NCBI RefSeq assembly: GCF_000092205.1
Contig: NC_014216.1
Coordinates: forward strand, 1,617,742 to 1,681,741
Length of the DNA: 64,000 bases
Reading direction: 5' to 3'
From: Desulfurivibrio alkaliphilus AHT 2
GTDB taxonomy: Bacteria > Desulfobacterota > Desulfobulbia > Desulfobulbales > Desulfurivibrionaceae
Position numbers and translations under genes: made by a program. The notes beneath the pieces are model-generated. The model did not search any database, had not been told where the DNA came from, and saw only the letters and a program-made list of their open reading frames with translations. Positions 1 through 55,758 of this stretch are shown here, in pieces. Each line of letters opens with the position of its first letter. The stretch's first letter is position 1.

Positions 1-656
1 ATCTTGCGCACCAGGTTCAGGTTGGCCAGGTTGAAGAGATAGCGAAAGGAAATGGCGTCGGAGAGGGTGACCCGCTTTTCAAAATTCTGGGTATCAACCT
101 TGATGGCGTAAAACAGGGCGGTGGCCAGTGCCACCGAGGGCCGGGCATTGGCGGCCCGCAGGTACTCCACCATCATCGAAGCGGTGGCCCCGTATTCCTT
201 GCGGATATCGACGAAGGTGGCCAGCCACCCCTTGGTGGCGGGGTGGTGATCGATGACCACATCAAAATCGATATTCTCAAAGCTGGGCAAGTGGCTGGGC
301 TGGGAGTCCAGCATTACCTTCTTGGAGTAATCCGCTAGCTTGACCGTATGCAACCGCTCGGCGGGGATTTTCAACAAATCCAGCATCACCAGATTGTTGA
401 GCCGGCGGATTTCGTTGGGATAGGCGATGGTGACGTTTTTCACCCGGTGCCGCAGCAGCCGTTTAACGGCAAAGGCGCTGGCCAGGGCGTCGGGGTCGGC
501 ATTGATCACCACCAGGACGTTGTCTTCCTTGTCGAACACGCCCCAGAACTCCTGCAGGCGGTCCTTGGCCGTTTTTTTGGAATTACGCTTGCGGTTGGGG
601 TTGGGGCCAAGCCGGGGGTTAGCCTGCTTTCTGGCAACGGAACCATTATTCTTCAT
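1..656 (-). CDS. DHH-family phosphoesterase (NrnA-like), C-terminus outside window
   Basis: The reading frame is open on the minus strand from an ATG at 656 and runs off the left edge, so only about 218 N-terminal residues are visible. It shows the DHH superfamily signatures: VINADPDALASA near residue 45 (metal-binding motif I) and VIDHHPATKGW near residue 135 (the DHH motif). These are followed by YGATASMMVEYL and a segment ending ALFYAIKVDTQNF typical of NrnA/oligoribonuclease-type members. The family cleaves short oligonucleotides, cyclic dinucleotide products or pAp using Mn2+. The N-terminus is basic (KQANPRLGPNPNRKRNSKK) and may be an added tail. No clear Shine-Dalgarno is present; a TTGCCC-18-TATAGG promoter-like match on the minus strand (664-693) would place the transcript start almost at the ATG. 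The exact substrate cannot be told from this fragment. Confidence 0.85.
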   Translation of the reverse strand, partial: MKNNGSVARKQANPRLGPNPNRKRNSKKTAKDRLQEFWGVFDKEDNVLVVINADPDALASAFAVKRLLRHRVKNVTIAYPNEIRRLNNLVMLDLLKIPAERLHTVKLADYSKKVMLDSQPSHLPSFENIDFDVVIDHHPATKGWLATFVDIRKEYGATASMMVEYLRAANARPSVALATALFYAIKVDTQNFEKRVTLSDAISFRYLFNLANLNLVRK

Positions 657-36295: not shown

Positions 36296-39200
36296 ATGCC
36301 GGAAGCTGATACCACCACGGCCGTGCCCGACGCCGGGTTTGTGCATCTGCATGTGCATACCCAGTACAGCATGCTGGACGGGGCCATCCGTTTGGACCGC
36401 CTGCTGGCCCAGTGCAAGGAATACGGCATGGAGGCGGTGGCCATCACCGACCACGGGGCGATGTTCGGGGCCCTGGAATTTTACGTTAAGGCCAAAAAGG
36501 CCGGCATCAAGCCCATCATCGGCTGCGAGTTTTACGTGGCCCCTGCCGACCGGCGGGATAAAAGCGCCAAAAGCGCCGGGGCCGCCGCCCACCACCTGGT
36601 GTTGCTGGCGATGAACAACGAGGGCTACCAGAACTTGATGAAACTGGCCTCCTGCGCCCAGTTTGAAGGCTTCCACTACAAGCCCCGCATCGATTACGAA
36701 CTGCTCAGCCGCCACAACCAAGGGCTGATCGCCCTCACCGCCTGCCTCCACGGCCAGCTGCCGATGCTACTCACCCGGGGCGATTACGACGGCGCCAAGG
36801 CCGCCGCCGGCAAGCTGCAAAAACTTTTTCCCGACCGGCTCTACCTGGAGCTGCAGGAAAACAAGATCGCCGAGCAGCAGACGGTCAACGACGGGCTCAA
36901 AAAGCTGGCCGCCGAACTCAAGCTGCCGCTGGTGGCCACCAACGACTGCCACTACCTCAACCGGGAAGAGGCCCAGGCCCACGAGGTGCTGCTCTGCATC
37001 CAGACCGGCAAGACCATGGCCGACCAGGGCCGGTTCCGCTTTTCCACCGACGAGCTTTTTTTTAAGTCTCCCGCCGAGATGAAAAAAAGCTTCAGCCACT
37101 GCCCCGAGGCCATCGCCGAAACGGTGAAGGTGGCGGCACGCTGCAACGTGGAGCTGGATCTCAGCAGCCACCACTTTCCCCACTTCCCGATCCCCGAGGG
37201 GGAAACTTTAGAAAGCGTGTTCAGCAAGGACGCCCGGGAGGGCCTGGAAAAACGTTTCACCGAGATCCGCCGCTTAACCGAGCTGACCCCGGAGCAGGAA
37301 GAAGAATACCGGGCACGGCTGGAACATGAGATCGACGTGATCATCAAGATGGGCTTTCCCGGCTATTTTCTGATCGTCGCCGATTTCATCAACTGGGCCA
37401 AGGACCACGAGATTCCGGTGGGGCCGGGCCGGGGCTCGGGGGCCGGCAGCCTGGTAGCCTGGGCGATGCGGATCACCGACATCGACCCCATGCCCTATGG
37501 CCTGATCTTTGAGCGATTTTTGAATATCGAGCGCAAGTCCATGCCCGACTTCGATGTCGATTTCTGCCAGGAGCGGCGCGGCGAGGTCATCGAGTACGTG
37601 CAGCAGAAATATGGCGGCGCCGAGCACGTGGCCCAGATCGTTACCTACGGCTCCATGAAGGCCCGGGCGGTGGTGCGCGACGTGGGCCGGGCGCTGGGTA
37701 TGCCTTACGGCGAGGTGGACCGGATCGCCAAGCTGATCCCCGAAGAGCTGGGGATCACCCTGGACAAGGCCATCGACAAGGAGCCCCGGCTGGGCGACCT
37801 GATGAAGCGCGAACCGCCGGTGGCCGAACTGCTCAACGCCGCCCGGGTACTGGAAGGGCTGCAGCGGCACACCTCCACCCACGCCGCCGGGGTGGTGATC
37901 TCGCCCAAACCCATGGTGGAGTACCTACCGCTGTGCAAGGGCCCCAAGGGCGAGGTGCTGACCCAGTACGACATGAAGCACACCGAGATGACCGGGCTGA
38001 TCAAGTTCGACTTTCTCGGGCTTAAGACCCTCACCGTCATCGACCGGGCCTGCAAGCTGATCAAGGGCGACCTGGGCCGGGAGATCGACATCGGCGCCAT
38101 TGCCACCGACGATCCCAAAACCTACGACCTGCTCTGCAAGGGCGACGCCCTGGGGGTCTTCCAGTTGGAAAGCTCCGGCATGCGCTCCTTGCTGATGAAG
38201 ATGAAACCCGAGCAGTTTTCCGACCTCATCGCCCTGGTGGCCCTGTACCGCCCCGGCCCGCTGGAGTCGGGGATGGTGGATGATTTCGTCAACACCAAGC
38301 ACGGCCGCATGGTGGCCAAGTACCCCCTGCCCCAGTTGGAGCCGATCCTGCAGGAAACCTACGGGGTGATCGTCTACCAGGAACAGGTGATGAAGATTGC
38401 CAACGTGCTGGCCGGCTACTCGCTGGGCGATGCCGACAACCTGCGGCGGGCCATGGGCAAAAAGATCGCCGCGGTGATGGATGCCGAGAAAGACAAGTTC
38501 ATGGCCGGCTGCGCCAAAAACAATATCGACCCCAAGAAGGCCGAATACATCTTTGATTTGATGGCCAAGTTCGCCGGCTACGGCTTCAACAAGAGCCACA
38601 GTGCGGCCTACGCCTTGGTGGCCTACCAGACCGCCTGGCTCAAGGCCCACTACCCGGCCCAGTTCATGGCCGCCCTGCTCTCCTGCGACATGGGCAACAC
38701 CGACAAGGTGGTGCGCTACATCAACGAGTGCAAGGAACACGAGATCGAGGTGCTGCCGCCGGACATCAACGAGTCCTTCCGGGACTTCACGGTCATCGAC
38801 GACCGCATCCGCTTCGGCCTGGCGGCGGTGAAAAACGTCGGCGGGGCAGCACTGGAATCGATCATCGAGATCCGCGAGGCCGACGGCCCCTACAAGTCGC
38901 TGGTGGACTTCTGCCAACGGGTGGATGGTCGCAAGGTTAACCGCCGGGTGATTGAAAGCCTGATCCGGGCCGGGGCCTTTGATTCCCTGGGCGCCAAGCG
39001 TTCGCAACTGGAGGCCATTTTAGACCGGGCCCTGGACCAGGCCCAGGCCGCCCAGCGGGATAAATTGAGCGGCCAAATCTCCCTTTTTGCCGCCATGCCC
39101 ACCGATCAGGCCGAACGGGCCACCGAGATCGAGCTGCCGGAGATGCCGGAGTGGGAGGAGAAACAGAAGCTGCTCTTTGAAAAGGAAACAGTGGGTTTTT

Positions 39201-39874
39201 ATCTCACCGGCCACCCGCTGGACAAGCACCGCCGGGAGCTGGCGGCGCTCACCGACACCGACCTGCACGGCCTGGCGGAATGGCCGGACAACCAGCCGGC
39301 CAGAATCGGCGGCCTGATCCGCCAGTTCAAGAACCACCGCAGCAAAAAGGGCGATGCCATGGCCTTCGTCACCCTGGAAGACACGGTGGATTCGGTGGAG
39401 GTGGTGGTCTTCCCCAACACCTACGCCGAATGCGCCCACCTGCTGGCCGGCGATGAACCCATCGTGATCCAGGGCAAGGTGCAGAAGGAGGAAAACGGGG
39501 TGAAGATGATCGCCGACACGGTGGACGGCTTGAGCGAGGCCCAGGTGAAGTACACCGACCGGGTGATGATCCGGCTCAAGGCCGACAAGGTGGACCGCCC
39601 CAAGATCGAGGCGGTGAAAAAAAGCATCCAGCGCCACCACGGCCCCTGCCCGGTCTCCCTCAACCTGCTCTTCCCCGACCGGGGCGAGGTGGAAGTGGCC
39701 GCCTCCAATGATCTTACCATCCGCCCGGGCCGCGACTTCACCACCGAAGTGGAACAACTGCTGGGCTATGCCGCCTTAAGCTACCGCAAAAAGGCCACCG
39801 AGGAGCGGGAGCAGGGCCGGGGCAACGGCTGGGGTGGCCGGGGCAATGGCCGGAGTAACGGCCGCCGCCCCTGA
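36296..39874 (+). CDS. dnaE: DNA polymerase III alpha subunit
   Basis: 1192 residues, usual DnaE size. The N-terminal PHP domain opens FVHLHVHTQYSMLDGAIRL with ITDHGAMFGALEF. The catalytic palm has SMPDFDVDFCQERRGEV (about 415) and VGPGRGSGAGSLVAW. The C-terminal part has tandem HhH (KFAGYGFNKSHSAAYALVAYQTAW), the OB fold (about 1005-1080) and a Gly/Arg/Asn-rich tail (GNGWGGRGNGRSNGRRP). It is the replicative polymerase of the chromosome. It starts 2 nt after the Trm112-like gene, and an inverted repeat at 39920-39954 lies beyond its end. Confidence 0.97.
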   Translation: MPEADTTTAVPDAGFVHLHVHTQYSMLDGAIRLDRLLAQCKEYGMEAVAITDHGAMFGALEFYVKAKKAGIKPIIGCEFYVAPADRRDKSAKSAGAAAHHLVLLAMNNEGYQNLMKLASCAQFEGFHYKPRIDYELLSRHNQGLIALTACLHGQLPMLLTRGDYDGAKAAAGKLQKLFPDRLYLELQENKIAEQQTVNDGLKKLAAELKLPLVATNDCHYLNREEAQAHEVLLCIQTGKTMADQGRFRFSTDELFFKSPAEMKKSFSHCPEAIAETVKVAARCNVELDLSSHHFPHFPIPEGETLESVFSKDAREGLEKRFTEIRRLTELTPEQEEEYRARLEHEIDVIIKMGFPGYFLIVADFINWAKDHEIPVGPGRGSGAGSLVAWAMRITDIDPMPYGLIFERFLNIERKSMPDFDVDFCQERRGEVIEYVQQKYGGAEHVAQIVTYGSMKARAVVRDVGRALGMPYGEVDRIAKLIPEELGITLDKAIDKEPRLGDLMKREPPVAELLNAARVLEGLQRHTSTHAAGVVISPKPMVEYLPLCKGPKGEVLTQYDMKHTEMTGLIKFDFLGLKTLTVIDRACKLIKGDLGREIDIGAIATDDPKTYDLLCKGDALGVFQLESSGMRSLLMKMKPEQFSDLIALVALYRPGPLESGMVDDFVNTKHGRMVAKYPLPQLEPILQETYGVIVYQEQVMKIANVLAGYSLGDADNLRRAMGKKIAAVMDAEKDKFMAGCAKNNIDPKKAEYIFDLMAKFAGYGFNKSHSAAYALVAYQTAWLKAHYPAQFMAALLSCDMGNTDKVVRYINECKEHEIEVLPPDINESFRDFTVIDDRIRFGLAAVKNVGGAALESIIEIREADGPYKSLVDFCQRVDGRKVNRRVIESLIRAGAFDSLGAKRSQLEAILDRALDQAQAAQRDKLSGQISLFAAMPTDQAERATEIELPEMPEWEEKQKLLFEKETVGFYLTGHPLDKHRRELAALTDTDLHGLAEWPDNQPARIGGLIRQFKNHRSKKGDAMAFVTLEDTVDSVEVVVFPNTYAECAHLLAGDEPIVIQGKVQKEENGVKMIADTVDGLSEAQVKYTDRVMIRLKADKVDRPKIEAVKKSIQRHHGPCPVSLNLLFPDRGEVEVAASNDLTIRPGRDFTTEVEQLLGYAALSYRKKATEEREQGRGNGWGGRGNGRSNGRRP

Positions 39875-39976: not shown

Positions 39977-41149
39977 ATGATCCCTCGAATACTTCAGCCC
40001 ATCCTGAAAAAACTGGCCGGGCAATATCCGGTTGTCACCGTTACCGGCCCGCGGCAAAGCGGCAAGACCACCCTGTGCCGGGCGGTGTTTCCAGATTACG
40101 CTTATGTTAACCTGGAGATGCCGGATTTACGCGAATTTGCCCGTACCGACCCCCGGGGTTTTTTGGCCTCACACCCCAAGGGGCTTATTCTGGATGAAGT
40201 GCAGCGGGTGCCCGAACTGTCCTCTTACCTGCAGGCATTGGTCGATCAAAGCCGGGAGCCGGGCCGTTTCATCTTAACCGGGAGCCAGCAGTTTGAGGTG
40301 ATGAGCACCATTACCCAGTCTCTGGCGGGACGGACCACCCTGCTGAAACTGCTGCCGCTAAGCATGGAAGAGCTTGCGCAGGCGAAGATCGAGACCGGAA
40401 TCGACCAGACCCTGCTCACCGGCTTCTACCCCCGCATTTACGATGCCGGCCTTGATCCGACCCGGACCTTGGGCGACTACATGGAAACCTATGTCGAACG
40501 CGATATTCGGCAACTGATGGCCATCAAGGACTTGGCTCTGTTTGAAAAATTTGTCCGCCTTTGTGCCGGTCGGGTCGGCCAGTTGCTCAACCTGCAGAGC
40601 CTGGGCAACGACACCGGCGTTTCTCATACCACGGCCCGTAGCTGGCTGACCCTGCTGGAAGCCAGTTATGTGGTGTTTCTGCTGCAACCCTGGCATGTCA
40701 ATATCTCCAAGCGCCAGGTGAAAACCCCCAAGCTCTATTTCTATGATGTGGGTCTGGCCTCTTACCTGCTGGGGGCGGAAAACGAGTTGCACATCAACCG
40801 GCACCCCCTTAAGGGCAACCTGTTTGAAAACATGGTGGTGGTCGAAGCTCTGAAATACCGCTTCAATAGGGGAAAAAGGAGCAATCTTTACTTCTGGAGA
40901 GACGTCCGGGGCAACGAGGTGGACCTCCTGCTGGCCGCCGGCCCGGATTTGTTTCCCGTGGAGATCAAGGCGGGAGCGACCATCAGCGGCGATTACTTCA
41001 AGGGCCTGCAAACCTTCGCCGCCAAAGCCCCCACCCCCCCAACTGCCTCCGCCCTGGTATATGCCGGCGAAGAAAACCAGCGCCGCAGCAAGGTCTCGGT
41101 CTGGCCGGCGCAGGAAGTGGCGGCCATGATGCGAAGTTTCAAGCTTTGA
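39977..41149 (+). CDS. AAA ATPase with DUF4143 domain (first of three)
   Basis: 390 residues. Walker A VTGPRQSGKTTLCRA (about 20) and Walker B LILDEVQRVPEL (about 70), followed by FILTGSQQFEVM; the second half is DUF4143 (YVERDIRQLMAIKDLALFEKFV, LLNLQSLGNDTGVSHTTARSWL, ENMVVVEALKYRF, DVRGNEVDLLL). The C-terminal NEVDLLL / VEIKAG segment resembles a PD-(D/E)XK-like fold. These proteins are common accessory genes in anaerobes. Their function is not established, although defence or toxin roles are often suggested. Start ATG has no SD. Confidence 0.88.
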   Translation: MIPRILQPILKKLAGQYPVVTVTGPRQSGKTTLCRAVFPDYAYVNLEMPDLREFARTDPRGFLASHPKGLILDEVQRVPELSSYLQALVDQSREPGRFILTGSQQFEVMSTITQSLAGRTTLLKLLPLSMEELAQAKIETGIDQTLLTGFYPRIYDAGLDPTRTLGDYMETYVERDIRQLMAIKDLALFEKFVRLCAGRVGQLLNLQSLGNDTGVSHTTARSWLTLLEASYVVFLLQPWHVNISKRQVKTPKLYFYDVGLASYLLGAENELHINRHPLKGNLFENMVVVEALKYRFNRGKRSNLYFWRDVRGNEVDLLLAAGPDLFPVEIKAGATISGDYFKGLQTFAAKAPTPPTASALVYAGEENQRRSKVSVWPAQEVAAMMRSFKL

Positions 41150-41220: not shown

Positions 41221-41406
41221 CTAGAAGTTTTCGTGAGGGCCGACGGCCTCGATGAACGAGGCGGGTAAATCCGGGTTGTCCAATGCAGCCCGCCCCACTT
41301 TGGCCCAGAACTCCACCTGGCCTTGCACGGTACGGAACTCCGCCTTGGCGGCCTTACGTGCGGCCGCAACCAGATCCTCATCAATACGCACGGACAAAGT
41401 ACTCAT
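41221..41406 (-). CDS. ParD-like antitoxin, no toxin partner seen
   Basis: 61 residues from the ATG at 41406 (an in-frame start 12 nt upstream would add MEVV). It begins MSTLSVRIDEDLVAAARKAAKAEFRT and continues VQGQVEFWAKVGRAALDNP, the ribbon-helix-helix pattern of ParD-like (PF11903-type) antitoxins. No toxin-like frame is seen next to it: the region down to the DUF4143 gene is only 70 bp. It is either a lone antitoxin or a regulator left after toxin loss. Confidence 0.75.
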   Translation of the reverse strand: MSTLSVRIDEDLVAAARKAAKAEFRTVQGQVEFWAKVGRAALDNPDLPASFIEAVGPHENF

Positions 41407-41421
41407 CACAACCTCCATCAG

Positions 41422-41458
41422 AAAAAGGGGGACAGTTTTGAAAACTGTCCCCCTTTTT
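41422..41458 (-). terminator. 37-bp perfect palindrome, intrinsic terminator of the flagellin gene
   Basis: AAAAAGGGGGACAGTTTT, one base, then its exact complement ending CCCCCTTTTT. In minus-strand RNA it makes a long hairpin followed by U residues, 64 bp after the flagellin stop codon. The same palindrome core occurs at 2675-2699. Confidence 0.7.
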
Positions 41459-41521: not shown

Positions 41522-44323
41522 TTAGCCCTGGAGCAGGCTGAGTACGTTCTGGGCCGTGGCGTTGGCCTGGGCCATGGCGAAGGAGCCGGCCTGGTTCAGC
41601 ACCTGGAACTTGCTGAAGTTGGCCGCTTCCTCGGCGAAGTCCACGTCGCGGATGCCACTTTCAGCCGCAGTGATGTTGACCCGGGTCACCGAGATGTTGG
41701 AGATGGTGGAGGTCAACTGGTTCTGGACCGAACCCAGGTCGGCGCGGACCTTGTTCAGCGACTTCAGGGCCGCGTCGGCGATGGCAATGGCCTGCTGGGC
41801 GCCTTCCTGGCTGGTTACATCAACGTCGGAGAGGCGGGCCAGGACGGTGTCGCCCATCTCGCCGGCGGCCACGTCGGCAAGTACACCGGAGGGCGCCAGG
41901 GTGGAGTGGGCGGTGATCACCGAATCGGCAGCGAGGCTGATATTGCGCTCGATGGTCAGCTTGTCGGCGCCGACCACGAAGTCGTTGTCCAGCACGGTAC
42001 CGGCGGCGGCTACCAGTTCGCCACCGTCATAGAGATCGAAGGTCATGGTGGTGCCGGCCTTGATCACCGAACCGGTGTTGAGTTCCGAGCCCTTGGCCAC
42101 GATCATGCCGTCGCCCCGTACCTGGGCATCGGAGAGCAGGGTGGCAGTGCCGCCCAGGGTGGAGCCGTCGGCAATCTCCGAGTCGGTGTTGAGCCGCGAA
42201 CCCTGCGCCAGGGTCATCTGCTCGCCCTGGGCCGCCAGGGTGTACGCCCCGTCTTCCAGGGTGAAGGAGTTGGCCAGAGTCAGGGTGGAGCCGGCCGCAA
42301 CATCAGAGTTGGTGGTATCAGACGCCAAGGTGAAGTTGGGGCCCACCACCGCGTCGGAAGCGAGGACAAACTGGTCGTCGTCGTCGTCAAATTCCGAGCC
42401 GGCGCCCATGATGGTGCCGGTCGCAAGTTCCGAGCCAGCAACGATATCCATGGACGCACCGTCAACCTCCAGCCTGGAAAGCTCCAATGCGCTGCTTTCA
42501 ATTACGCTGTCGGTATGGAGGACGCTGCCAACTGCCAACTTCAGTGTTACATCATCAAGGGTGGTCATATTGCTGCCGACTACCACCTCGTTGGCGAAGT
42601 CGTGTTCGACAGCAACAGCACCAGCGCCAGCTGCTGCAGTTATCTCCAAGTTCTCGGTCAACTGATAGCTGCCATCGCTCAGCACGGTGTAGGCACCCCC
42701 GGTATAGCTGGCATTAGCATCACCACCAGTTGCAGCGTCAACCGCAGCCAACAAACCTTCATAATCCTGCTGGCTGAAAATGGTGCCCGAGGTAAAGGTG
42801 ATACCACTTCCATCAGCGTCAACGGTCAAATCACTACCAACCTCCAACACCGAACCGGCGCCGATCACATCATCATCCCCGGTCGCATCGACCGTTGCCG
42901 AGAGGGTGGCCTTGCCGAAAATATCCGTATTGGCGGCCAAATCGATCTTACCGATCAACACGGAGCCGCTGCCGGCGGTGATAACGCCTGTCGTGCCGTC
43001 GATCTCTTCAATGGTAATGGCGCTGGTCAGATCGGAACCATCCCCGATCACCGTGCCCGCTTTCAAGACCGAACCGGCGGCCAGCACCAGGTCTGTCGCG
43101 GCGACATCCGTATCCAGCATATATCCATTGGCGAACTCCACCGAAATCTGGGAATTGGCGGCAATCCGCGAACCGGCCGCCAACTCCGAGTTGGTGTTCA
43201 GCAACATCCCGTCTTCTTCGTTGACATTGAGGGTATCCACCCGCAGGTTACCCACCACCGAAACCAGATCGCCGTCCAGATCGTTGCGGTCATAGACCAT
43301 GATCTCGGCCGCGCCCATCTGGGTAAGCTGAATATGACCCAGGGTGGACATATCTTCGGTACCGCCCAATACACCACGGGTAGCATCATCGGCGGTCACC
43401 GAAATGGCCCGGCCGTCCATGGAGGTCAGGGTCATCTTACCTTCAAAGTCAACGGAGGCGAAAACGCCGTGCTGGTTGCTTTTCTGGTTAATGGCCGCCA
43501 CCAAGGCGCCGTCGGCGTCATTTTCCTGCACGGAGATGGAACCGATATTGACCCCGTTGATGGAAAACACGCCGGTCTGACCTTTTTCGATATTCTCGTC
43601 GGTAGTGGTGCGCACCACGGCGTTGGCGGTGATACCCAACTGGTCGCTGAGCTTGTTGATCTCATCGGCCACCGCGCCCAGGGAGTTCTCCCGGCTGTTG
43701 TCGTAACGCACATCCACGGTGTTGAGGTTGTAGGTGCGGTTCTCGATGCTGGAATAAAGCGACAGCGAAGAGGTACCAGCTTCGGAAAAGTTCAACTGGG
43801 ACGAGGTAACATGGCCGATCTTGGTGGATTCGCTGGAGGCGATGGAAAAGTTTACCGTCTCCTGGGCGTAGGCACCGATCTGGAAGGCCTTGTTGGTGAA
43901 GGCGCCGCTAAGCAGCTTCTGGTTGTTGAAGGCGGTGGTCCGGGCGATGTTGTCGAGCTGTTCCATCAGCCGGTTGACATCGGCCTGGATGGCGGCCCGG
44001 GATTCCTGGGTCTGGCCGTCCTGGGCGGCCTGGATGGCTTTGGTCTTAATGGTGTTGACGATGTTGATGGATTCCTCCAGGGCACCATCGGCGGTCTGCA
44101 CCATGGCGATACCGTCGTTGGCGTTCCGGATGGCCTGGCCCAAACCCAGAGACTGGGAACGCAGAGAGTCGGCAATGGCCATGCCGGAGGCGTCGTCGGC
44201 GGCGCGGTTGATGCGCAGACCCGAGGAGAGACGCTCCAGCGAGGTGTTGAGGTTGCCGCTGGTCTTCTGCATGTTGTTGTGGGCGTTCATTGCCGCGATG
44301 TTGGTGTTGATTTTCAAGCTCAT
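41522..44323 (-). CDS. fliC: Large flagellin with repeat-rich central domain
   Basis: 933 residues, about twice or more the usual size. The N-terminal D0/D1 part (1-175; SLKINTNIAAMNAHNNMQ, SLERLSSGLRINRAADDASG) and the C-terminal part (about 840-933; VRADLGSVQNQLTSTISNI, AAESGIRDVDFAEEAANFSK, ATAQNVLSLLQG) are canonical. The 650-residue middle is acidic, cysteine-free, and built from imperfect repeats of the form AxGSxLxxGSxIxxGSxL. Examples are LAAGSVLKAGTVIGDGSDL, LAVGSVLHTDSVI, VAGSELATGTIMGAGSEF and LAQGSRLNTDSEIADGSTL, which would suit a beta-solenoid exposed on the filament surface. SD GGAGG is 8 nt upstream. No other flagellar gene is near; the gene sits among accessory genes. Confidence 0.93.
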   Translation of the reverse strand: MSLKINTNIAAMNAHNNMQKTSGNLNTSLERLSSGLRINRAADDASGMAIADSLRSQSLGLGQAIRNANDGIAMVQTADGALEESINIVNTIKTKAIQAAQDGQTQESRAAIQADVNRLMEQLDNIARTTAFNNQKLLSGAFTNKAFQIGAYAQETVNFSIASSESTKIGHVTSSQLNFSEAGTSSLSLYSSIENRTYNLNTVDVRYDNSRENSLGAVADEINKLSDQLGITANAVVRTTTDENIEKGQTGVFSINGVNIGSISVQENDADGALVAAINQKSNQHGVFASVDFEGKMTLTSMDGRAISVTADDATRGVLGGTEDMSTLGHIQLTQMGAAEIMVYDRNDLDGDLVSVVGNLRVDTLNVNEEDGMLLNTNSELAAGSRIAANSQISVEFANGYMLDTDVAATDLVLAAGSVLKAGTVIGDGSDLTSAITIEEIDGTTGVITAGSGSVLIGKIDLAANTDIFGKATLSATVDATGDDDVIGAGSVLEVGSDLTVDADGSGITFTSGTIFSQQDYEGLLAAVDAATGGDANASYTGGAYTVLSDGSYQLTENLEITAAAGAGAVAVEHDFANEVVVGSNMTTLDDVTLKLAVGSVLHTDSVIESSALELSRLEVDGASMDIVAGSELATGTIMGAGSEFDDDDDQFVLASDAVVGPNFTLASDTTNSDVAAGSTLTLANSFTLEDGAYTLAAQGEQMTLAQGSRLNTDSEIADGSTLGGTATLLSDAQVRGDGMIVAKGSELNTGSVIKAGTTMTFDLYDGGELVAAAGTVLDNDFVVGADKLTIERNISLAADSVITAHSTLAPSGVLADVAAGEMGDTVLARLSDVDVTSQEGAQQAIAIADAALKSLNKVRADLGSVQNQLTSTISNISVTRVNITAAESGIRDVDFAEEAANFSKFQVLNQAGSFAMAQANATAQNVLSLLQG

Positions 44324-44415
44324 GGTTTAATCCTCCGTCCATGTGTGGTTGATTGTGAGGGAATCCTTTCCCCCGCTTTGATCTGATTGTTTGGTTTTCG
44401 TTTTTTTCTCACTTG

Positions 44416-44433: not shown

Positions 44434-44595
44434 CTCCTTTTACCGCGCTTTATAGTGGATATTCCTACCGTTCAGGCCCGGCGCAGGCGTCTTGGCCCGA
44501 CGGGGCCGACTCTTGGGTTTCAAAGGACGTATCGGCGGCCGGGGAGGATTCTTGAATGTTTTTTGCGATGTTGAACCGGTTTCGACTTGGCGCCT

Positions 44596-44647: not shown

Positions 44648-45613
44648 GTGGCAGTTATGGTGTATTTGGACCCAAAAACAACAAACCGTCTTGACGAGAA
44701 ATTATTACGGTTGAATTCATATCGACCGCTCCCCAAGGCTGCTGTTCGAAAGCTCAAGGAGAAGTTCGGCTTGGAAATGACCTACAATTCCAATGCCATC
44801 GAGGGGAACAGCCTGACCCTCAAAGAAACCTTCTGGGTAATAAGCGAAGGCCTGACGATCAAAGGCAAGCCACTCAAGGACCATCTTGAGGCGAAAAGTC
44901 ACGCTGAGGCCCTGGAGTATTTATACGAAGCGGTGGACAAGAACAGGCGCGCCACGTTTTCCGAGCGACTGATCAGGGAATTCAACCAGATTGTGATGCG
45001 CGACCTCGATAGAGAATGGGCCGGCCGGTACCGAAACAGCAATGTAATCATAGGCGGGGCCGATCATCTGCCGCCCGAAGCAGTGGAGGTTCCCCGGTTG
45101 ATGCGGGAGCTTGTAGATTGGGTGCGGCAAGACAGGAAAAGCCTGCACCCGGTTGAGCTGGCGGCCTTGTTGCACCACCGGCTTGCCCACATTCATCCTT
45201 TTTTTGACGGCAACGGCCGGACCTCCAGGCTCGCCATGAATGTTGTCTTGATCCAGGCCGGCTTTCCATTGGCGGTTGTCCTGAAAACCGATCGAAAAAA
45301 GTACTACCGGACCCTGGGCGAGGCCGACCGGGGTAACCATGGCCCCTTCGTACGCTTCATTGCCCAGGCGGTGCTTCGATCACTCGATATCTATCTTAAA
45401 GTGCTCACACCGGACCAGAGGGCCAGAGAACATTTCATCCCCTTAGCCGAGCTTGCCAAGCGCTCATCGTTTTCTTCCAAGTATCTCAATCTTTTGGCCC
45501 GCGCCGGCAAGCTTGAAGCCCACAAGGAGGGGCGCAACTGGCTGTCGTCGGAAGAGGCGCTCAAGAGGTATCTGGACGGCAGAGAGAGAAAGCGGAGAAA
45601 AATTGGAGTCTGA
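44648..45613 (+). CDS. Fic-domain protein (AMPylase-type) with inhibitory motif
   Basis: 321 residues from GTG 44648, or 318 from ATG 44657 (the latter looks better). The active motif is HIHPFFDGNGRTSR (about 180), an exact HxFx(D/E)GNGRxxR, so it should transfer AMP or another nucleotide to a hydroxyl side chain. The upstream SNAIEGNSL (about 45) fits the (S/T)xxxE(G/N) inhibitory motif of class II Fic proteins, which self-inhibit. The C-terminal 70 residues (LAKRSSFSSKYLNLLARAGKLEAHKEGRNW) look like a winged-helix DNA-binding domain. The upstream inverted repeat could be its target. Confidence 0.92.
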   Translation: MAVMVYLDPKTTNRLDEKLLRLNSYRPLPKAAVRKLKEKFGLEMTYNSNAIEGNSLTLKETFWVISEGLTIKGKPLKDHLEAKSHAEALEYLYEAVDKNRRATFSERLIREFNQIVMRDLDREWAGRYRNSNVIIGGADHLPPEAVEVPRLMRELVDWVRQDRKSLHPVELAALLHHRLAHIHPFFDGNGRTSRLAMNVVLIQAGFPLAVVLKTDRKKYYRTLGEADRGNHGPFVRFIAQAVLRSLDIYLKVLTPDQRAREHFIPLAELAKRSSFSSKYLNLLARAGKLEAHKEGRNWLSSEEALKRYLDGRERKRRKIGV

Positions 45614-45680: not shown

Positions 45681-46826
45681 CTAAAAAGTTTTTATTTCGC
45701 CTTCCACCATGCCCAAAGGGACCACCGAAATCCTGTCGTGAACCGGATAACTGTGCGCTCCCGGATACACCACCCAGAGGTGGGCCAAGTTCAGGTCAAC
45801 CAAGGCACTGTGCATGGACTTGGTGATTTTGGGTGCCTCGCTGAACTTAAATTCCACCCCGTAGCGTTTGCCCCCGGCGAAGATAAGCAGGTCCAGCTCC
45901 GCGCCGGCATGGGTGGCCCAGAACCAGGCCTGATCCGGGCCAACCAGAGTCAGCACCTGCTCCAGAGCAAATCCTTCCCAGGAGGCGCCAAGGCGGGGGT
46001 GCCCCAACAGCGCGGAAAGATCGTCGATACTGAGCAGGCTGTGCAACAGGCCGGAGTCACGAAGAAAAATTTTGGGGGCTTTTACTTGGCGCTTGCCGAT
46101 GTTTTCGTGCCAGGGCTGCAGTTGCCTGACCATGTAGGTGCCGGTAAGGATATCCAGATAGGCGCGCACGGTTTTGTCGCTAAGCCCCATGGAGCGCCCC
46201 AACTCGGAGGCGTTCCAGGTCTGGCCGTGCAGGTGGGCCAGCATGGTCCAGAAACGGCGCATGGCCGCTGCCGGAATAGAGATGCCCAACTGGGGAATAT
46301 CGCGCTCAAGAAAGGTGCGGATAAAGCCTTCCCGCCAGGCCAGGCTATCCGCTTCCGAGGCGGCCAGAAAAGAGCGGGGAAAGCCGCCGCGCAACCAAAG
46401 GCGCTCCTCCTGCCCATGGGGGATCTCGGCCAAATCGAAGCCGGCCAGATCAACGAATTCGATCCGACCGGCCAGGGTTTCGGAAACCCCTTTAATAATC
46501 TGCGGGGAGGCGCTGCCCAGGATGAGGTAGCGAGCCCCATTGTCCGGCCGATCAACCAGCACCCGCAAGGAGTTGAAAAGTTCCGGCACAATTTGAATTT
46601 CGTCCAAGATGACCAGCCCGGACAGCGGCCCCAGCATCAACTCCGGGTTTTGCAGCCGCCGCCGATCCGCTTCCGATTCCAAGTCGAAGTAGTGGGCGGA
46701 ATAGCTTTGGGCCATCATCCGGGCCAAAGTGGTCTTGCCGCACTGCCTGGGGCCAAGCAGGGCGCAGACCGGAGATCGTTCAATGGCGACGCTGATGGCC
46801 TTCCTATAGCGATGGCGGGGGATCAT
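45681..46826 (-). CDS. AAA ATPase with DUF4143 domain (second of three)
   Basis: 381 residues. Walker A LLGPRQCGKTTLARM (about 32), Walker B LVILDEIQIVPEL (about 82), then YLILGSASPQIIKGVSETLAGRI, a typical DUF4143 neighbour motif. DUF4143 features include FLERDIPQLGISIPAAAMRRFWTML, SMGLSDKTVRAYLDIL and EGFALEQVL, and the C-terminus has GAELDLLIFAGGKRYGVEFK. It is divergent from the third copy at 46939, sharing a 112-bp control region with two inverted repeats. SD GAAGG lies 6-10 nt before the ATG. Confidence 0.88.
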   Translation of the reverse strand: MIPRHRYRKAISVAIERSPVCALLGPRQCGKTTLARMMAQSYSAHYFDLESEADRRRLQNPELMLGPLSGLVILDEIQIVPELFNSLRVLVDRPDNGARYLILGSASPQIIKGVSETLAGRIEFVDLAGFDLAEIPHGQEERLWLRGGFPRSFLAASEADSLAWREGFIRTFLERDIPQLGISIPAAAMRRFWTMLAHLHGQTWNASELGRSMGLSDKTVRAYLDILTGTYMVRQLQPWHENIGKRQVKAPKIFLRDSGLLHSLLSIDDLSALLGHPRLGASWEGFALEQVLTLVGPDQAWFWATHAGAELDLLIFAGGKRYGVEFKFSEAPKITKSMHSALVDLNLAHLWVVYPGAHSYPVHDRISVVPLGMVEGEIKTF

Positions 46827-46900: not shown

Positions 46901-46939
46901 TTGACACCCGTAGTATTTAAAGGTAGTGTTTAAATACTA
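46901..46939 (+). promoter_or_regulatory. Promoter and operator-like inverted repeat before the third DUF4143 gene
   Basis: TTGACA at 46901-46906 is followed by 17 bp and TAGTGT. TAGTATTTAAA (46911-46921) and TTTAAATACTA (46929-46939) form a perfect 11-bp inverted repeat that covers the -10 region and touches the ATG at 46939. Transcripts would have almost no leader. Confidence 0.5.
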
Positions 46940-48177
46940 TGGCAAAAAAGCGCGCTTTGAGTGAAAAGATCGACCGGTTGCTGGCCATGTTTCCGGTTGT
47001 TGCCGTTATCGGGCCCCGCCAGTGCGGCAAGTCCACCCTGGTGCAGGATATTCGCCCCGACTGGAAATATTACGATCTTGAACGGCCGGACGATTATCAA
47101 CTTATCACTTCCGACCCGCTGGGTTTTTTCAGCCGCCAGACGGAAAAAACCATTATTGACGAAGCCCAGCAGTTTCCCGACCTGTTCAAAGTCCTGCGGG
47201 GCGTGATCGACCAAGACCGGGAAGAGGCAGGCAGGTTCATCCTCACCGGCTCAAGTTCTCCGGAGATTGTCAAAGGGCTTGCAGAGAGCCTGGCCGGGCG
47301 GATTGCCACCGTTGAACTATGGCCCTTTAAAGGCAGCGAACTGCATGAAAGGCCGCTGGCGCCGATTTACCACCTTCTGACGCAAAAGGGGCCGGACCTC
47401 CAGGCGTTGGCGAACCTGCAGCCGGTGCTGAGTCGGCAGGAAGTCGATGATCAATGGCTGTTGGGGGGATACCCGGAGCCGAGAATCAAAGGCGCCAATA
47501 TCCCGGACTTCCACGGCCTCTGGATGGATGAGTATTTTTCCGACTACATCAGAAGGGACATCGGCCAACTTTTTCCCAGAATCAACCGTCACACTTTTCG
47601 TCTGTTTATCCAAAGCCTCTCTTTTCAGTCCGGCAATATCCTGAACCGGTCGGAAATTGCCAGGGCCCTGGAGATAAGCTCCGTCACCGTTAAAGAATAC
47701 CTGGATATTCTACACAACACCTTTATCTGGCGTAATTTACCCAGTTACGAGAAAAACCGGCTGAAAAAAGTCCAGAAGATGCCCAAGGGGTTTTTTCGGG
47801 ACCAGGGCATCCTTCATCATTTGTTGAAAATCCACGACCTGGACTCCCTGCTTGTCCACCCCGCCGCCGGCAACTCCTTCGAGGCTTTCGTGATCGAAGA
47901 GATCGTCCGGGGATTTCAGTGCACCTTAACCCCGGGGCTGGAGTTTCATTTCTACCGGACAAGGGATAAAGCGGAGATCGACCTGATCATCGACGGCCCC
48001 TTCGGCATAATCCCCATCGAAGTAAAACTCGGCCACCAGATTAACCGGAGAAGCCTGACCGCCTTGAGAAACTTTTTGGCGGATACCGGCGCCGATATCG
48101 GTATTGTGGTTAACAATTCAGAGAAAATAGAGTTTTTGGCGGACAATATTCTGCAGATCCCCGCCCGCTATTTTTAA
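46939..48177 (+). CDS. AAA ATPase with DUF4143 domain (third of three)
   Basis: 412 residues. Walker A VIGPRQCGKSTLVQD (about 20), Walker B TIIDEAQQFPDL (about 70), and FILTGSSSPEIVKGLAESLAGRI. The DUF4143 half has YIRRDIGQLFPRINRHTFRLF, EIARALEISSVTVKEYLDIL and SFEAFVIEEIVRGF. The C-terminus FHFYRTRDKAEIDLII and IIPIEVKLG resembles a nuclease-like fold (D...E-x-K). The three DUF4143 genes in this zone are clearly paralogous but diverged in length and detail. Divergent from the second copy; higBA begins 46 nt downstream. Confidence 0.88.
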   Translation: MAKKRALSEKIDRLLAMFPVVAVIGPRQCGKSTLVQDIRPDWKYYDLERPDDYQLITSDPLGFFSRQTEKTIIDEAQQFPDLFKVLRGVIDQDREEAGRFILTGSSSPEIVKGLAESLAGRIATVELWPFKGSELHERPLAPIYHLLTQKGPDLQALANLQPVLSRQEVDDQWLLGGYPEPRIKGANIPDFHGLWMDEYFSDYIRRDIGQLFPRINRHTFRLFIQSLSFQSGNILNRSEIARALEISSVTVKEYLDILHNTFIWRNLPSYEKNRLKKVQKMPKGFFRDQGILHHLLKIHDLDSLLVHPAAGNSFEAFVIEEIVRGFQCTLTPGLEFHFYRTRDKAEIDLIIDGPFGIIPIEVKLGHQINRRSLTALRNFLADTGADIGIVVNNSEKIEFLADNILQIPARYF

Positions 48178-53709: not shown

Positions 53710-53919
53710 TGCTCTGCCACCGCCAGGGAAAATGTTAACGAAAAAGGATCAACTTAGCCTTTTTTCAAAACCACGGCAAGCACTGCCGGCAGGCAGGCCC
53801 CCTTACCCATGGCCACCATGATCGGTTGCTTTTCCGCTTCTCTATTGCCGGCAAATAAAGTAGTATGTGGTGTTACGGTTATCCCCCTCCACCCCTCCAC
53901 TTCTTTTTTTAAGGTTACC

Positions 53920-55758
53920 ATGACTGATTCGGACATTCTCACGGATATTCTTAGTTTCTCCCAGTTGCCCCTGGCGCCGGCCATTCACCGGGCGGTGGAT
54001 GAGCTTGGCTTTGAAACCCCCACTCCCATTCAGGCCGAAAGCATTCCGCCGCTGCTGGCCGGGCGCGATCTGCTGGGGCAGGCCCAGACCGGCACCGGCA
54101 AGACCGCCGCCTTCTCCCTGCCCCTGCTCAGCCAACTGGAGGTCGACAAAAAATATCCCCAACTGCTGGTGTTGGCCCCCACCCGGGAGCTGGCCCTGCA
54201 GGTGGCCGAGGCCATGCAGAGCTTCGCCCGCCACCTGCCCGGCTTCCAGGTGCTGCCGCTGTACGGCGGCCAGAACATGACCCTGCAGTTGCGCCGCCTG
54301 CAACGCGGCGCCCAGGTGGTGGTGGGCACCCCGGGTCGTATCCAGGACCACCTGCGCCGGGGCACCCTGAGGCTGGAGCGGCTCAGCGCGGTGGTGGTGG
54401 ACGAGGCCGACGAGATGCTCAAGATGGGCTTCATCGACGCCGTGGAACAGATCTTGGAGCACGCCCCCAAGGAGCGCCAGGTGGCGCTCTTCTCCGCCAC
54501 CATGCCGACGGCGGTGCGCAAGATCGCCCACCGGCATTTGAAAAACCCGGTGGAGATCAAAATCAAGCGCACCACCACCAGTATGGCCGCCATCACCCAG
54601 CAGTTCTGGGCGGTCAAGGGTTTGCACAAGCTGGACGCCTTGACCCGCCTGCTGGAAGCCGAGGAGTTCGAGGCGGTGCTGGTCTTTGTCCGCACTAAGG
54701 TGGCCACCGTGGAACTGGCCGAGAAGCTGGAGGCCCGGGGCTTTGCCGCCGCCGCCTTAAACGGCGACATGACCCAGCAGATGCGGGAAAAGACCATCGA
54801 ACAGGTTAAAAGCGGCGCCCTGGATATCGTGGTGGCCACCGACGTGGCCGCCCGGGGCCTGGATGTGGCGCGGATCACCCACGTGATCAACTACGATGTG
54901 CCCTACGACACCGAATCGTACATCCACCGCATCGGCCGCACCGGCCGGGCCGGGCGGCAGGGCAAGGCGATCATCTTCGTTACCCCGCGGGAGCGGCGGC
55001 TGCTGGCGGCCATCGAGCAGGCCAGCGGCCAGAAGATCGCCCCCATCAGCCTGCCCAGCCGCCAGGATATCAGCGACCGGCGGGTCAGCCTCTTCAAGGA
55101 AAAGATCAGCGAGGTAATGGCCCAGCAGGAACTGGATTTTTTTGAAGAGTTGATCGACGACTACCAGCAGGAGCAAGACGTCGACCCCCGGCGGATCGCC
55201 GCCGCCTTAAGCTGGCTGCTCCAGCAGGAGCGCCCCCTGCAGGCCCCGGCCGAACCGGAGGGCCGAGCGTCATCCCGGGAAGACGATTCCGCCTTGGCCG
55301 GCGGCGGCAAAAAATGGGAACGGGAGCCGCAGCGCCGTGAGCATTCCCGGGAACGGGACCAAGAGCGCCAGCACGACCGGAGTCATGATCAGTGGCGGCG
55401 CTACCGCATTGAAGTTGGCCGCCAGCACGGAGTGGAGCCGGGCAACATCGTCGGGGCCATCACCAACGAGGCCAACCTCAGCAGTCGCGAGATCGGCGCC
55501 ATCAAGATTTACGATTTTTTCAGCCTGGTCGATTTGCCCCACGATCTGCCCCAGCCTCTGGTGCGGCACCTGGAAAAGGTCTGGATTCGCAGCCGCCAGC
55601 TCTACCTGCGCCCCGACGGCGAGCCTCTGCCCGAGGGCGCCAAGGCAAAGGCCGGCCCCAGTGGCCGGGCGGGCAAACCGCCACGGCCCCGCACCGGAGT
55701 CCGCCGCTACCCCCGCACCAATCGCAGCGAACCGCGCAAAGGCGGCAAACGCCGCTGA
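53920..55758 (+). CDS. deaD: DEAD-box RNA helicase with DbpA-type RNA-binding domain (DeaD/CsdA-like)
   Basis: 612 residues from the ATG at 53920 (SD TTAAGG); a longer upstream frame has no SD. Motifs: Q motif GFETPTPIQ, AQTGTGKTAA (I), PTRELALQ (Ia), VVDEADEMLKM (II), SATMPT (III), HRIGRTGRAGR (VI). A DbpA-like RNA-binding domain is at about 520-590 (RYRIEVGRQHGVEPGNIVGA), with a charged linker before it and a basic Arg/Pro/Gly tail. Such helicases act in ribosome assembly and mRNA decay, often at low temperature. CsdA rather than DbpA fits the length. Confidence 0.93.
   Translation: MTDSDILTDILSFSQLPLAPAIHRAVDELGFETPTPIQAESIPPLLAGRDLLGQAQTGTGKTAAFSLPLLSQLEVDKKYPQLLVLAPTRELALQVAEAMQSFARHLPGFQVLPLYGGQNMTLQLRRLQRGAQVVVGTPGRIQDHLRRGTLRLERLSAVVVDEADEMLKMGFIDAVEQILEHAPKERQVALFSATMPTAVRKIAHRHLKNPVEIKIKRTTTSMAAITQQFWAVKGLHKLDALTRLLEAEEFEAVLVFVRTKVATVELAEKLEARGFAAAALNGDMTQQMREKTIEQVKSGALDIVVATDVAARGLDVARITHVINYDVPYDTESYIHRIGRTGRAGRQGKAIIFVTPRERRLLAAIEQASGQKIAPISLPSRQDISDRRVSLFKEKISEVMAQQELDFFEELIDDYQQEQDVDPRRIAAALSWLLQQERPLQAPAEPEGRASSREDDSALAGGGKKWEREPQRREHSRERDQERQHDRSHDQWRRYRIEVGRQHGVEPGNIVGAITNEANLSSREIGAIKIYDFFSLVDLPHDLPQPLVRHLEKVWIRSRQLYLRPDGEPLPEGAKAKAGPSGRAGKPPRPRTGVRRYPRTNRSEPRKGGKRR

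Follow-up and report, generated by a model that had tools for sequence, protein, structure and literature searches.

A large flagellin of Desulfurivibrio alkaliphilus AHT 2 with a hexad-repeat outer domain

A 64,000-nucleotide stretch of the Desulfurivibrio alkaliphilus AHT 2 genome (NC_014216.1, positions 1,617,742 to 1,681,741; the window) carries on its minus strand, at 41522-44323, an intact 933-codon frame whose product is, as its domains indicate, a true bacterial flagellin; coordinates, strand and length (933 aa) agree with an earlier note made on this DNA from its sequence. A long outer domain of the protein follows a repeat of six residues. We assign a probability of roughly 0.7 to the reading that it is the main full-size subunit of the flagellar filament, expressed via FliA (sigma28), in which D0/D1 would polymerise as in any flagellin, an IN-type D2 would sit on D0/D1, and residues 346-835 would project outward as an elongated β structure of hexads, giving the filament a thick and strongly acidic surface. 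The flagellin identity, hexad code, promoter match, family and synteny are direct results of the analysis, while assembly, projection of the domain, thickening, control by FliA and a soda-lake role of the acidity are inferred.

Domain layout and hexad code

The ends that the earlier note recognised as canonical D0/D1 are confirmed by a Pfam scan of the whole protein (Flagellin_N at residues 5-143, E 1.1e-47; Flagellin_C at residues 847-931, E 6e-27). The same scan places the best stretch of Flagellin_IN (PF07196) at residues 253-301 and contains no catalytic or adhesive family, nor any peptidase family at E <= 0.1, leaving the adhesive or enzymatic roles once suggested for the insert with no matching domain in the protein. 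The top phmmer matches among solved structures are FlaB and FlaA of Helicobacter pylori and FlaA of Campylobacter jejuni, whose best stretches reach residues 347-385, each with a second stretch, and over residues 130-345 the protein shares 57-72% identity with 11 proteins of relatives. All ~650 residues that separate the D0/D1 ends had been taken for a repeat insert; they consist of ~165 residues of ordinary D2/Flagellin_IN and ~490 residues of repeat part. At 933 residues the protein is 'large' (>800) and not 'giant' (>1000), as it had been called, by the usage of PMC6248924, while two homologues in a sister species (1195 and 1209 aa) exceed the 1000-residue limit.

The outer domain is strongly repetitive, as had been claimed. 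Residues 371-818 (448 aa) contain 21 sites of the form G[ST]x[LIVMF] against a shuffle mean of 3.0 (sd 1.6), a count reached in none of 2000 shuffles, and the hydrophobic autocorrelation of the insert has z values of 4.06 at lag 6, 2.75 at lag 12 and 0.71 at lag 18. Read from the sequence, the repeat unit is a hexad with a period of six, whereas the units of pattern AxGSxLxxGSxI, of which at least nine had been counted, come down to one exact 12-mer (residue 743) and seven copies of a loose form. Around the 21 motifs, positions -9, -3, +9 and +15 are aliphatic or aromatic in fractions of 0.43, 0.86, 0.76 and 0.43; around 1547 motifs of 62 relatives (the alignment set defined below) the corresponding fractions are 0.67, 0.91, 0.71 and 0.58, and charges there are rare (0.03, 0.01 and 0.04 at -9, -3 and +9; 0.01-0.04 over all four positions). 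The hexapeptide theme is [LIV]xxx[ST]x, and by their residue pattern the flagellin hexads follow it.

Consistent with this, the insert scanned alone passes the curated cut-off of Hexapep (PF00132) by a narrow margin (28.5 against 27 bits), although the family is not listed at E <= 0.1 when the whole protein is scanned. Among 44 insert sequences (that of a shorter relative, L072, that of the window flagellin and 42 others) 42 match Hexapep at E <= 0.01, the best at E 2.8e-12. The family is absent from the Pfam results of four controls made from relatives' inserts, two by shuffling and two by reversal, whose rows all fall below cut-off (LbH_EIF2B, E 4.1, reversed; CARDB, E 2.1; ALN_composite, E 0.003, reversed). 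Searched by itself against PDB sequences with phmmer, the window insert gives three antibody chains (E 0.45-0.97), taken as chance, and an internal blastp of the insert matches only itself. Recent tandem expansion at the DNA level is not seen in the window gene, which holds five short arrays with scores of 30-35.

The composition of the insert is strongly acidic, with 15.4% D+E and 3.0% K+R compared to 7.8% and 3.3% in relatives, and its S+T content is lower (19.5% versus 28.9%). Such an acidic insert fits a soda-lake organism and may be an adaptation to that habitat.

Relatives and growth of the insert

The best 80 of 156 relatives found by a D1/D2 profile search were kept, at 77 loci, of which 70 yielded 80 open reading frames (ORFs) by pattern. 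The length set (n=65) omits open-ended or X-bearing ORFs, L075 (in-frame stop) and L134, and keeps L097, the start of which is cut by a contig end and which was skipped in the promoter scan (79 ORFs scanned). The 63-row alignment, comprising 62 relatives or their equals and the window protein, excludes proteins of <680 or >1320 aa together with L075, L097 and L112.

The 65 ORFs counted complete encode 690 to 2011 aa, with a median of 826. The comparison across relatives proposed in the earlier note finds flagellins of this size range in Desulfobacterota-type and Campylobacterota genomes, and many of these sulfur-cycling relatives share the hexad design. Genome titles include Desulfurivibrio, Desulfobacula, Desulfobacter, Desulfobotulus, Desulfospira and others, and also Sulfurimonas, Sulfuricurvum and Sulfurospirillum. 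A tree built from the core parts of the 63 proteins, where the phylum labels of metagenome-assembled genomes are the submitters' titles and partly unreliable, separates the 16 Campylobacterota from the rest at a branch (100/100) and pairs the window flagellin, as sister, with the first member of a tandem flagellin pair (1195 and 1209 aa) of Desulfurivibrio sp. AMeS2 (D. dismutans; 100/90). Some match to the whole protein, counting any flagellin, occurs in 36 of 38 genomes, this one included. D1/D2 profile matches occur in 24 of 197 evenly sampled genomes of the phylum, and a full-length match in a frame of at least 800 aa in 8 of the 197 by our own reading of the table. The large hexad flagellin type is frequent near Desulfurivibrio and not general in the phylum.

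Insert lengths range from 281 to 855 residues among the 63 aligned members (492 in the window protein, 753 in its sister). Measured against the window protein, the 62 relatives carry on average 105 extra residues, 98 of them before residue 625, while positions 695-834 are filled in 0.96-0.98 of the relatives; residues 695-799 are present in 0.97-0.98 of them at 25-37% identity by bin. The alignment thus indicates gain and loss of repeats chiefly within the first three fifths of the outer domain, with its last ~140 residues kept. The longest member, a 2011-aa flagellin of Desulfobacula sp. LigF6_bin14 (L083:9614-15649), has near-perfect hexapeptides (Hexapep E 2e-46, nine stretches) and, in contrast to the window gene, DNA tandem arrays with periods such as 18, 36, 72 and 108. 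A different kind of large flagellin (L056:187-3660), scanned over 1157 residues, shows Flagellin_IN in five stretches and no listed Hexapep.

Outer domains of flagellins show extreme variability, which raises the question of how a chain that leaves and re-enters the filament core can grow by repeats. A simple hexad code, the spread of insert lengths and the 2011-aa extreme provide a natural length series for relating filament width, stiffness and swimming to the length of the outer domain; D. dismutans, with its tandem pair of giant homologues and its thick flagella, makes the length question testable.

Fold of the outer domain and its possible role

Structure prediction, which the earlier note had suggested, succeeded for part of the insert. 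The AlphaFold2 model of the window protein (63 alignment rows) has a mean predicted local distance difference test score (pLDDT) of 77 and a predicted template-modelling score (pTM) of 0.53; confidence is high in D1, D2 and residues 701-810 (blocks mostly >85), lower at the D0 ends (54-78) and poor in the middle of the insert. The insert of the relative L072 (381 aa, 44 rows) is modelled at a mean pLDDT of 89.9 and pTM of 0.82, with 293 of 381 residues at pLDDT >= 90. In this model 32 of 53 strand-to-strand steps span six residues, including twelve consecutive strands about six residues apart at 285-353. Together, the periodicity, the Hexapep matches and AlphaFold2 support a regular β repeat on a polymerising flagellin. 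The solenoid form assigned to it by the earlier note is plausible as a model and goes beyond what the fold matches, which are weak, can prove.

For an insert alone, comparisons by fold were made with that of L072. Foldseek against the PDB returns 101 rows at E <= 10 and none at E <= 0.001, and phage structures in BFVD give nothing at E <= 0.001. A VIA re-check of 469 chains reaches a best Z of 4.1, below the 7-8 stated as typical for the top row of matchless models. Hexapeptide proteins are absent from the best 50 of the 101 Foldseek rows and from the 23 VIA rows; since VIA re-aligns only the list supplied by Foldseek, this absence is no disproof of a left-handed β-helix. Six of the 23 VIA rows are named cupin or cupin-like, and six further rows are proteins that we take to be cupins (double-stranded β-helices). 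Several rows align widely separated model ranges, e.g. 85..201 for ~60 aligned residues. By sequence profile the picture differs: of the 60 rows listed for the insert profile against PDB sequences, the first 24 bear hexapeptide-type names, including LpxD (2.5e-7), GlmU and LpxA, with eIF2B-epsilon lower down and three antigen I/II-type adhesin chains at E 0.001-0.024. Aligned by hhalign to three acyltransferase-type (LpxA-type) proteins of the same genome, the insert matches over 22 columns (probability 74%, E 2.9e-5).

The profile matches, the widespread Hexapep hits and the six-residue strand spacing all favor a true left-handed β-helix of the hexapeptide acyltransferase type, which would stand off the filament as one or two stiff triangular rods. 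We nevertheless regard this as doubtful, given the weak structural matches of a confident model (neither Foldseek nor VIA excludes the fold), an autocorrelation that peaks at lags 6 and 12 and not at 18, and an hhalign match confined to a few columns; in addition, a single rod would end distant from D1, to which the chain returns. With weak Foldseek, VIA and hhalign matches, the left-handed β-helix is not accepted as settled. There is a real chance that the fold is new, and we tentatively propose a double-stranded β-roll in which hexapeptide-type repeats run out and back with both ends held at D1/D2. Such a roll is suggested by the need of the chain to return to D1 and by the cupin-type VIA rows, the Z values of which are too low to show it. 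If correct, an out-and-back roll would let the flagellin lengthen hexad by hexad, up to the 2011-aa subunit, with the filament core unbroken, and the outer domain would constitute a tunable filament coat across sulfur-cycling Desulfobacterota and Campylobacterota.

Several observations weigh against the assignment of residues 346-835 to an outward β structure on the main filament subunit. The hexads of the window protein are less clean than those of its relatives, with charges at -9, -3, +9 and +15 in 0.29, 0.05, 0.10 and 0.19 of its 21 motifs, and pLDDT over residues 401-680 is 28-76, falling below 50 at 405-416, 565-579 and 618-674. Expression and filament make-up in AHT2 are predictions from sequence, and a passage of PMC5016858 records the strain as non-motile. 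The '1-2 thick subpolar flagella' that PMC12142623 ascribes to D. dismutans AMeS2 would fit a thickened filament, although the passages concerned give no experimental tie to the flagellin genes.

The poorly modelled middle of the insert bears on a further explanation, in which the insert is largely disordered and the β model an artefact of AlphaFold2. The method over-predicts β-solenoids for perfect repeats, according to PMC11795689, and its authors doubt the model of a less perfect natural repeat, mucin 22; for four Pfam families in the same study all methods agree. The flagellin repeats are natural and diverged, as in those families, which lessens the concern and does not remove it. Charges in the family avoid the inward hexad positions and most of the L072 insert is modelled at high pLDDT, making an artefact improbable. 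Nor do we find decay of the flagellin in a strain that has stopped swimming probable: Maf and NeuB, unmatched here, are both present in the sister species between the same flanks, and the non-motile record would fit; however, the reading frame is intact, the promoter matches, FliD, FliS and FlgK are present, and PMC12142623 describes AMeS2 cells as motile vibrios 'similar to D. alkaliphilus', conflicting with PMC5016858 and implying motile cells. PMC5516251 contains no word starting flagell- or motil-. Finally, β surfaces repeated thousands of times along a filament could bind multivalently, and the antigen I/II-type chains among the profile matches would suit an outer domain that serves mainly in adhesion to, or binding of, minerals, sulfur particles or cells. 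These chains match far more weakly than the hexapeptide proteins, Pfam scans of the protein and inserts yield no adhesion or carbohydrate-binding family, and insert length varies widely among close kin, so this role too appears unlikely.

The window flagellin shares features with several known systems. H. pylori FlaA/FlaB and C. jejuni FlaA (9ygu, 9yh1, 6x80) have D0/D1 and D2/IN in common with the window flagellin (VIA Z 23-29), but at 508-576 aa they are shorter and their best sequence stretches stop before most of the hexad outer domain. Proteins with the hexapeptide-repeat left-handed β-helix (PF00132) share the hexad code and the Pfam match, whereas the hexads here lie in the outer domain of a filament protein and their three-dimensional fold is unsettled. 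Large flagellins with thick filaments are already known (PMC6248924): in Bermanella and Oleibacter, large and giant flagellins are likewise enlarged by repeated material, and filaments of this other large-insert type measure at least 30 nm across versus 24 nm, in keeping with a thickened filament here. There, whole DE regions are duplicated and a DX insert is present, while the window flagellin has hundreds of hexad residues. Flagellinolysins (PMC7643111) carry an extra domain at the same hypervariable place, a metalloprotease in their case, in contrast to the window flagellin with no peptidase family in its Pfam scan. No description of a flagellin with a hexapeptide or solenoid insert was found among literature titles and abstract starts, the coverage of which was incomplete.

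Promoter, genomic setting and other flagellar genes

Table 1. Features of the flagellin gene and its surroundings, in window coordinates
Feature	Position	Strand	Basis or remark
Large flagellin gene	41522..44323	minus	933 aa, stop codon included
N-terminal D0/D1, residues 1-178	43790..44323	minus	Flagellin_N and long helices in model; limits approximate
D2-like part with Flagellin_IN, residues 179-345	43289..43789	minus	PF07196; block pLDDT 81-97 over 171-340
Hexad-repeat outer domain, residues 346-835	41819..43288	minus	Periodicity, model, Hexapep; limits approximate
Best Hexapep (PF00132) stretch, residues 414-430	43034..43084	minus	Residues 340-836 scanned alone
Best modelled and most conserved part of insert, residues 701-810	41894..42223	minus	Block pLDDT 88-97
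C-terminal D1/D0, residues 836-933	41525..41818	minus	Flagellin_C
Sigma28-type promoter match TCAA-15-GCCGATA	44530..44556	minus	7/7 fixed and 4/4 partly degenerate positions
Shine-Dalgarno-like GGAGGA, 7 bases 5' of ATG	44331..44336	minus	Read from sequence
ParD-like antitoxin gene	41221..41418	minus	PF11903 E 2.5e-18
Fic/DOC gene	44648..45613	plus	PF02661 E 1.6e-23
dnaE, conserved left flank	36296..39874	plus	Pfam; collinear with sister genome, 93-94% identity
DEAD-box helicase, first gene of conserved right flank	53809..55755	plus	Pfam; 85% identity in sister genome

The sigma28-type promoter match upstream of the gene agrees at all 11 scored positions and is equalled in 1 of 500 shuffles; it is a match in sequence, as distinct from a mapped start. 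Scores of at least 10 of 11 are found for 53 of the 79 ORFs scanned in relatives, in line with the FliA control that we propose.

The gene lies apart from other flagellar genes, as the earlier note had remarked: on the single 3,097,763-base contig of the genome the flagellin is at 1659.3 kb, FliD/FliS at 334.7-336.5 kb (~335 kb) and FlgK with an FlgL-like gene at ~2.73 Mb. Matches to both flagellin ends occur at three genomic places, namely the window gene, a 279-aa flagellin and the 983-aa gene beside FlgK, which we take for FlgL. By this count the window gene appears as one of two flagellins in the genome and the only full-size one found. The 279-aa protein (C1:1474086-1474916; L002:1078-1914, minus) has little beyond D0/D1 and is perhaps a partner or segment-specific flagellin; frames of 278-328 aa with both flagellin ends occur, by our own reading, in 22 of 38 genomes including this one. 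The FlgL-like protein (983 aa, L005:6691-9639) and FlgK (870 aa, L005:9654-12263) look oversized relative to the usual sizes of these proteins.

The neighborhood of toxin-antitoxin and DUF4143 genes noted earlier is borne out by Pfam (ParD-like, Fic and three separate AAA_14/DUF4143 ATPase genes at 39977-41149, 45681-46826 and 46939-48177), whereas the accessory island inferred from it is not supported, the site being common to the sister species. Window 30.9-39.9 kb and 53.8-63.8 kb are collinear, in inverted orientation, with 190-201 kb and 157-169 kb of a D. dismutans contig. In D. dismutans the shared flanks enclose two giant flagellins together with Maf and a NeuB cluster; in the window they enclose a single flagellin and ParD-like, Fic, DUF4143, ManC and phosphomannomutase genes. 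The three DUF4143 genes have no tblastn match in the compared 80 kb of the sister genome. The shared dnaE-side site with collinear flanks thus points to a conserved flagellin site with fast-changing neighbors and not to an island that brought the flagellin, and a recent mobile insertion is rejected, since these flagellins lie between collinear flanks in both genomes. The window insert has no match in a plasmid collection, and phage-collection matches of the whole flagellin cover at most 27% of the protein.

In four of six relatives' loci inspected by eye the flagellin adjoins FliD-like and FliS-like ORFs, and each of three large neighboring ORFs that were scanned hits both the MptE-like and the Maf N-terminal family, one of them with a Maf N-terminal score under the cut-off. 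Glycosylation by Maf is therefore likely in relatives, and where a Maf glycosyltransferase adjoins the flagellin the Ser/Thr-rich hexads may also serve as a glycan scaffold. Neither Maf nor NeuB, both beside the flagellins in D. dismutans, has a match in this genome; with this machinery missing, Maf glycosylation of the window flagellin is not supported. A palindrome resembling a repetitive extragenic palindromic (REP) element surrounds GGGGACAGTTTT at window 41427-41453 and 2675-2699, the former copy lying between the stop codon of the flagellin and the ParD-like gene, and the longer exact form of the GGGGACAGTTTT palindrome occurs at two places in the genome.

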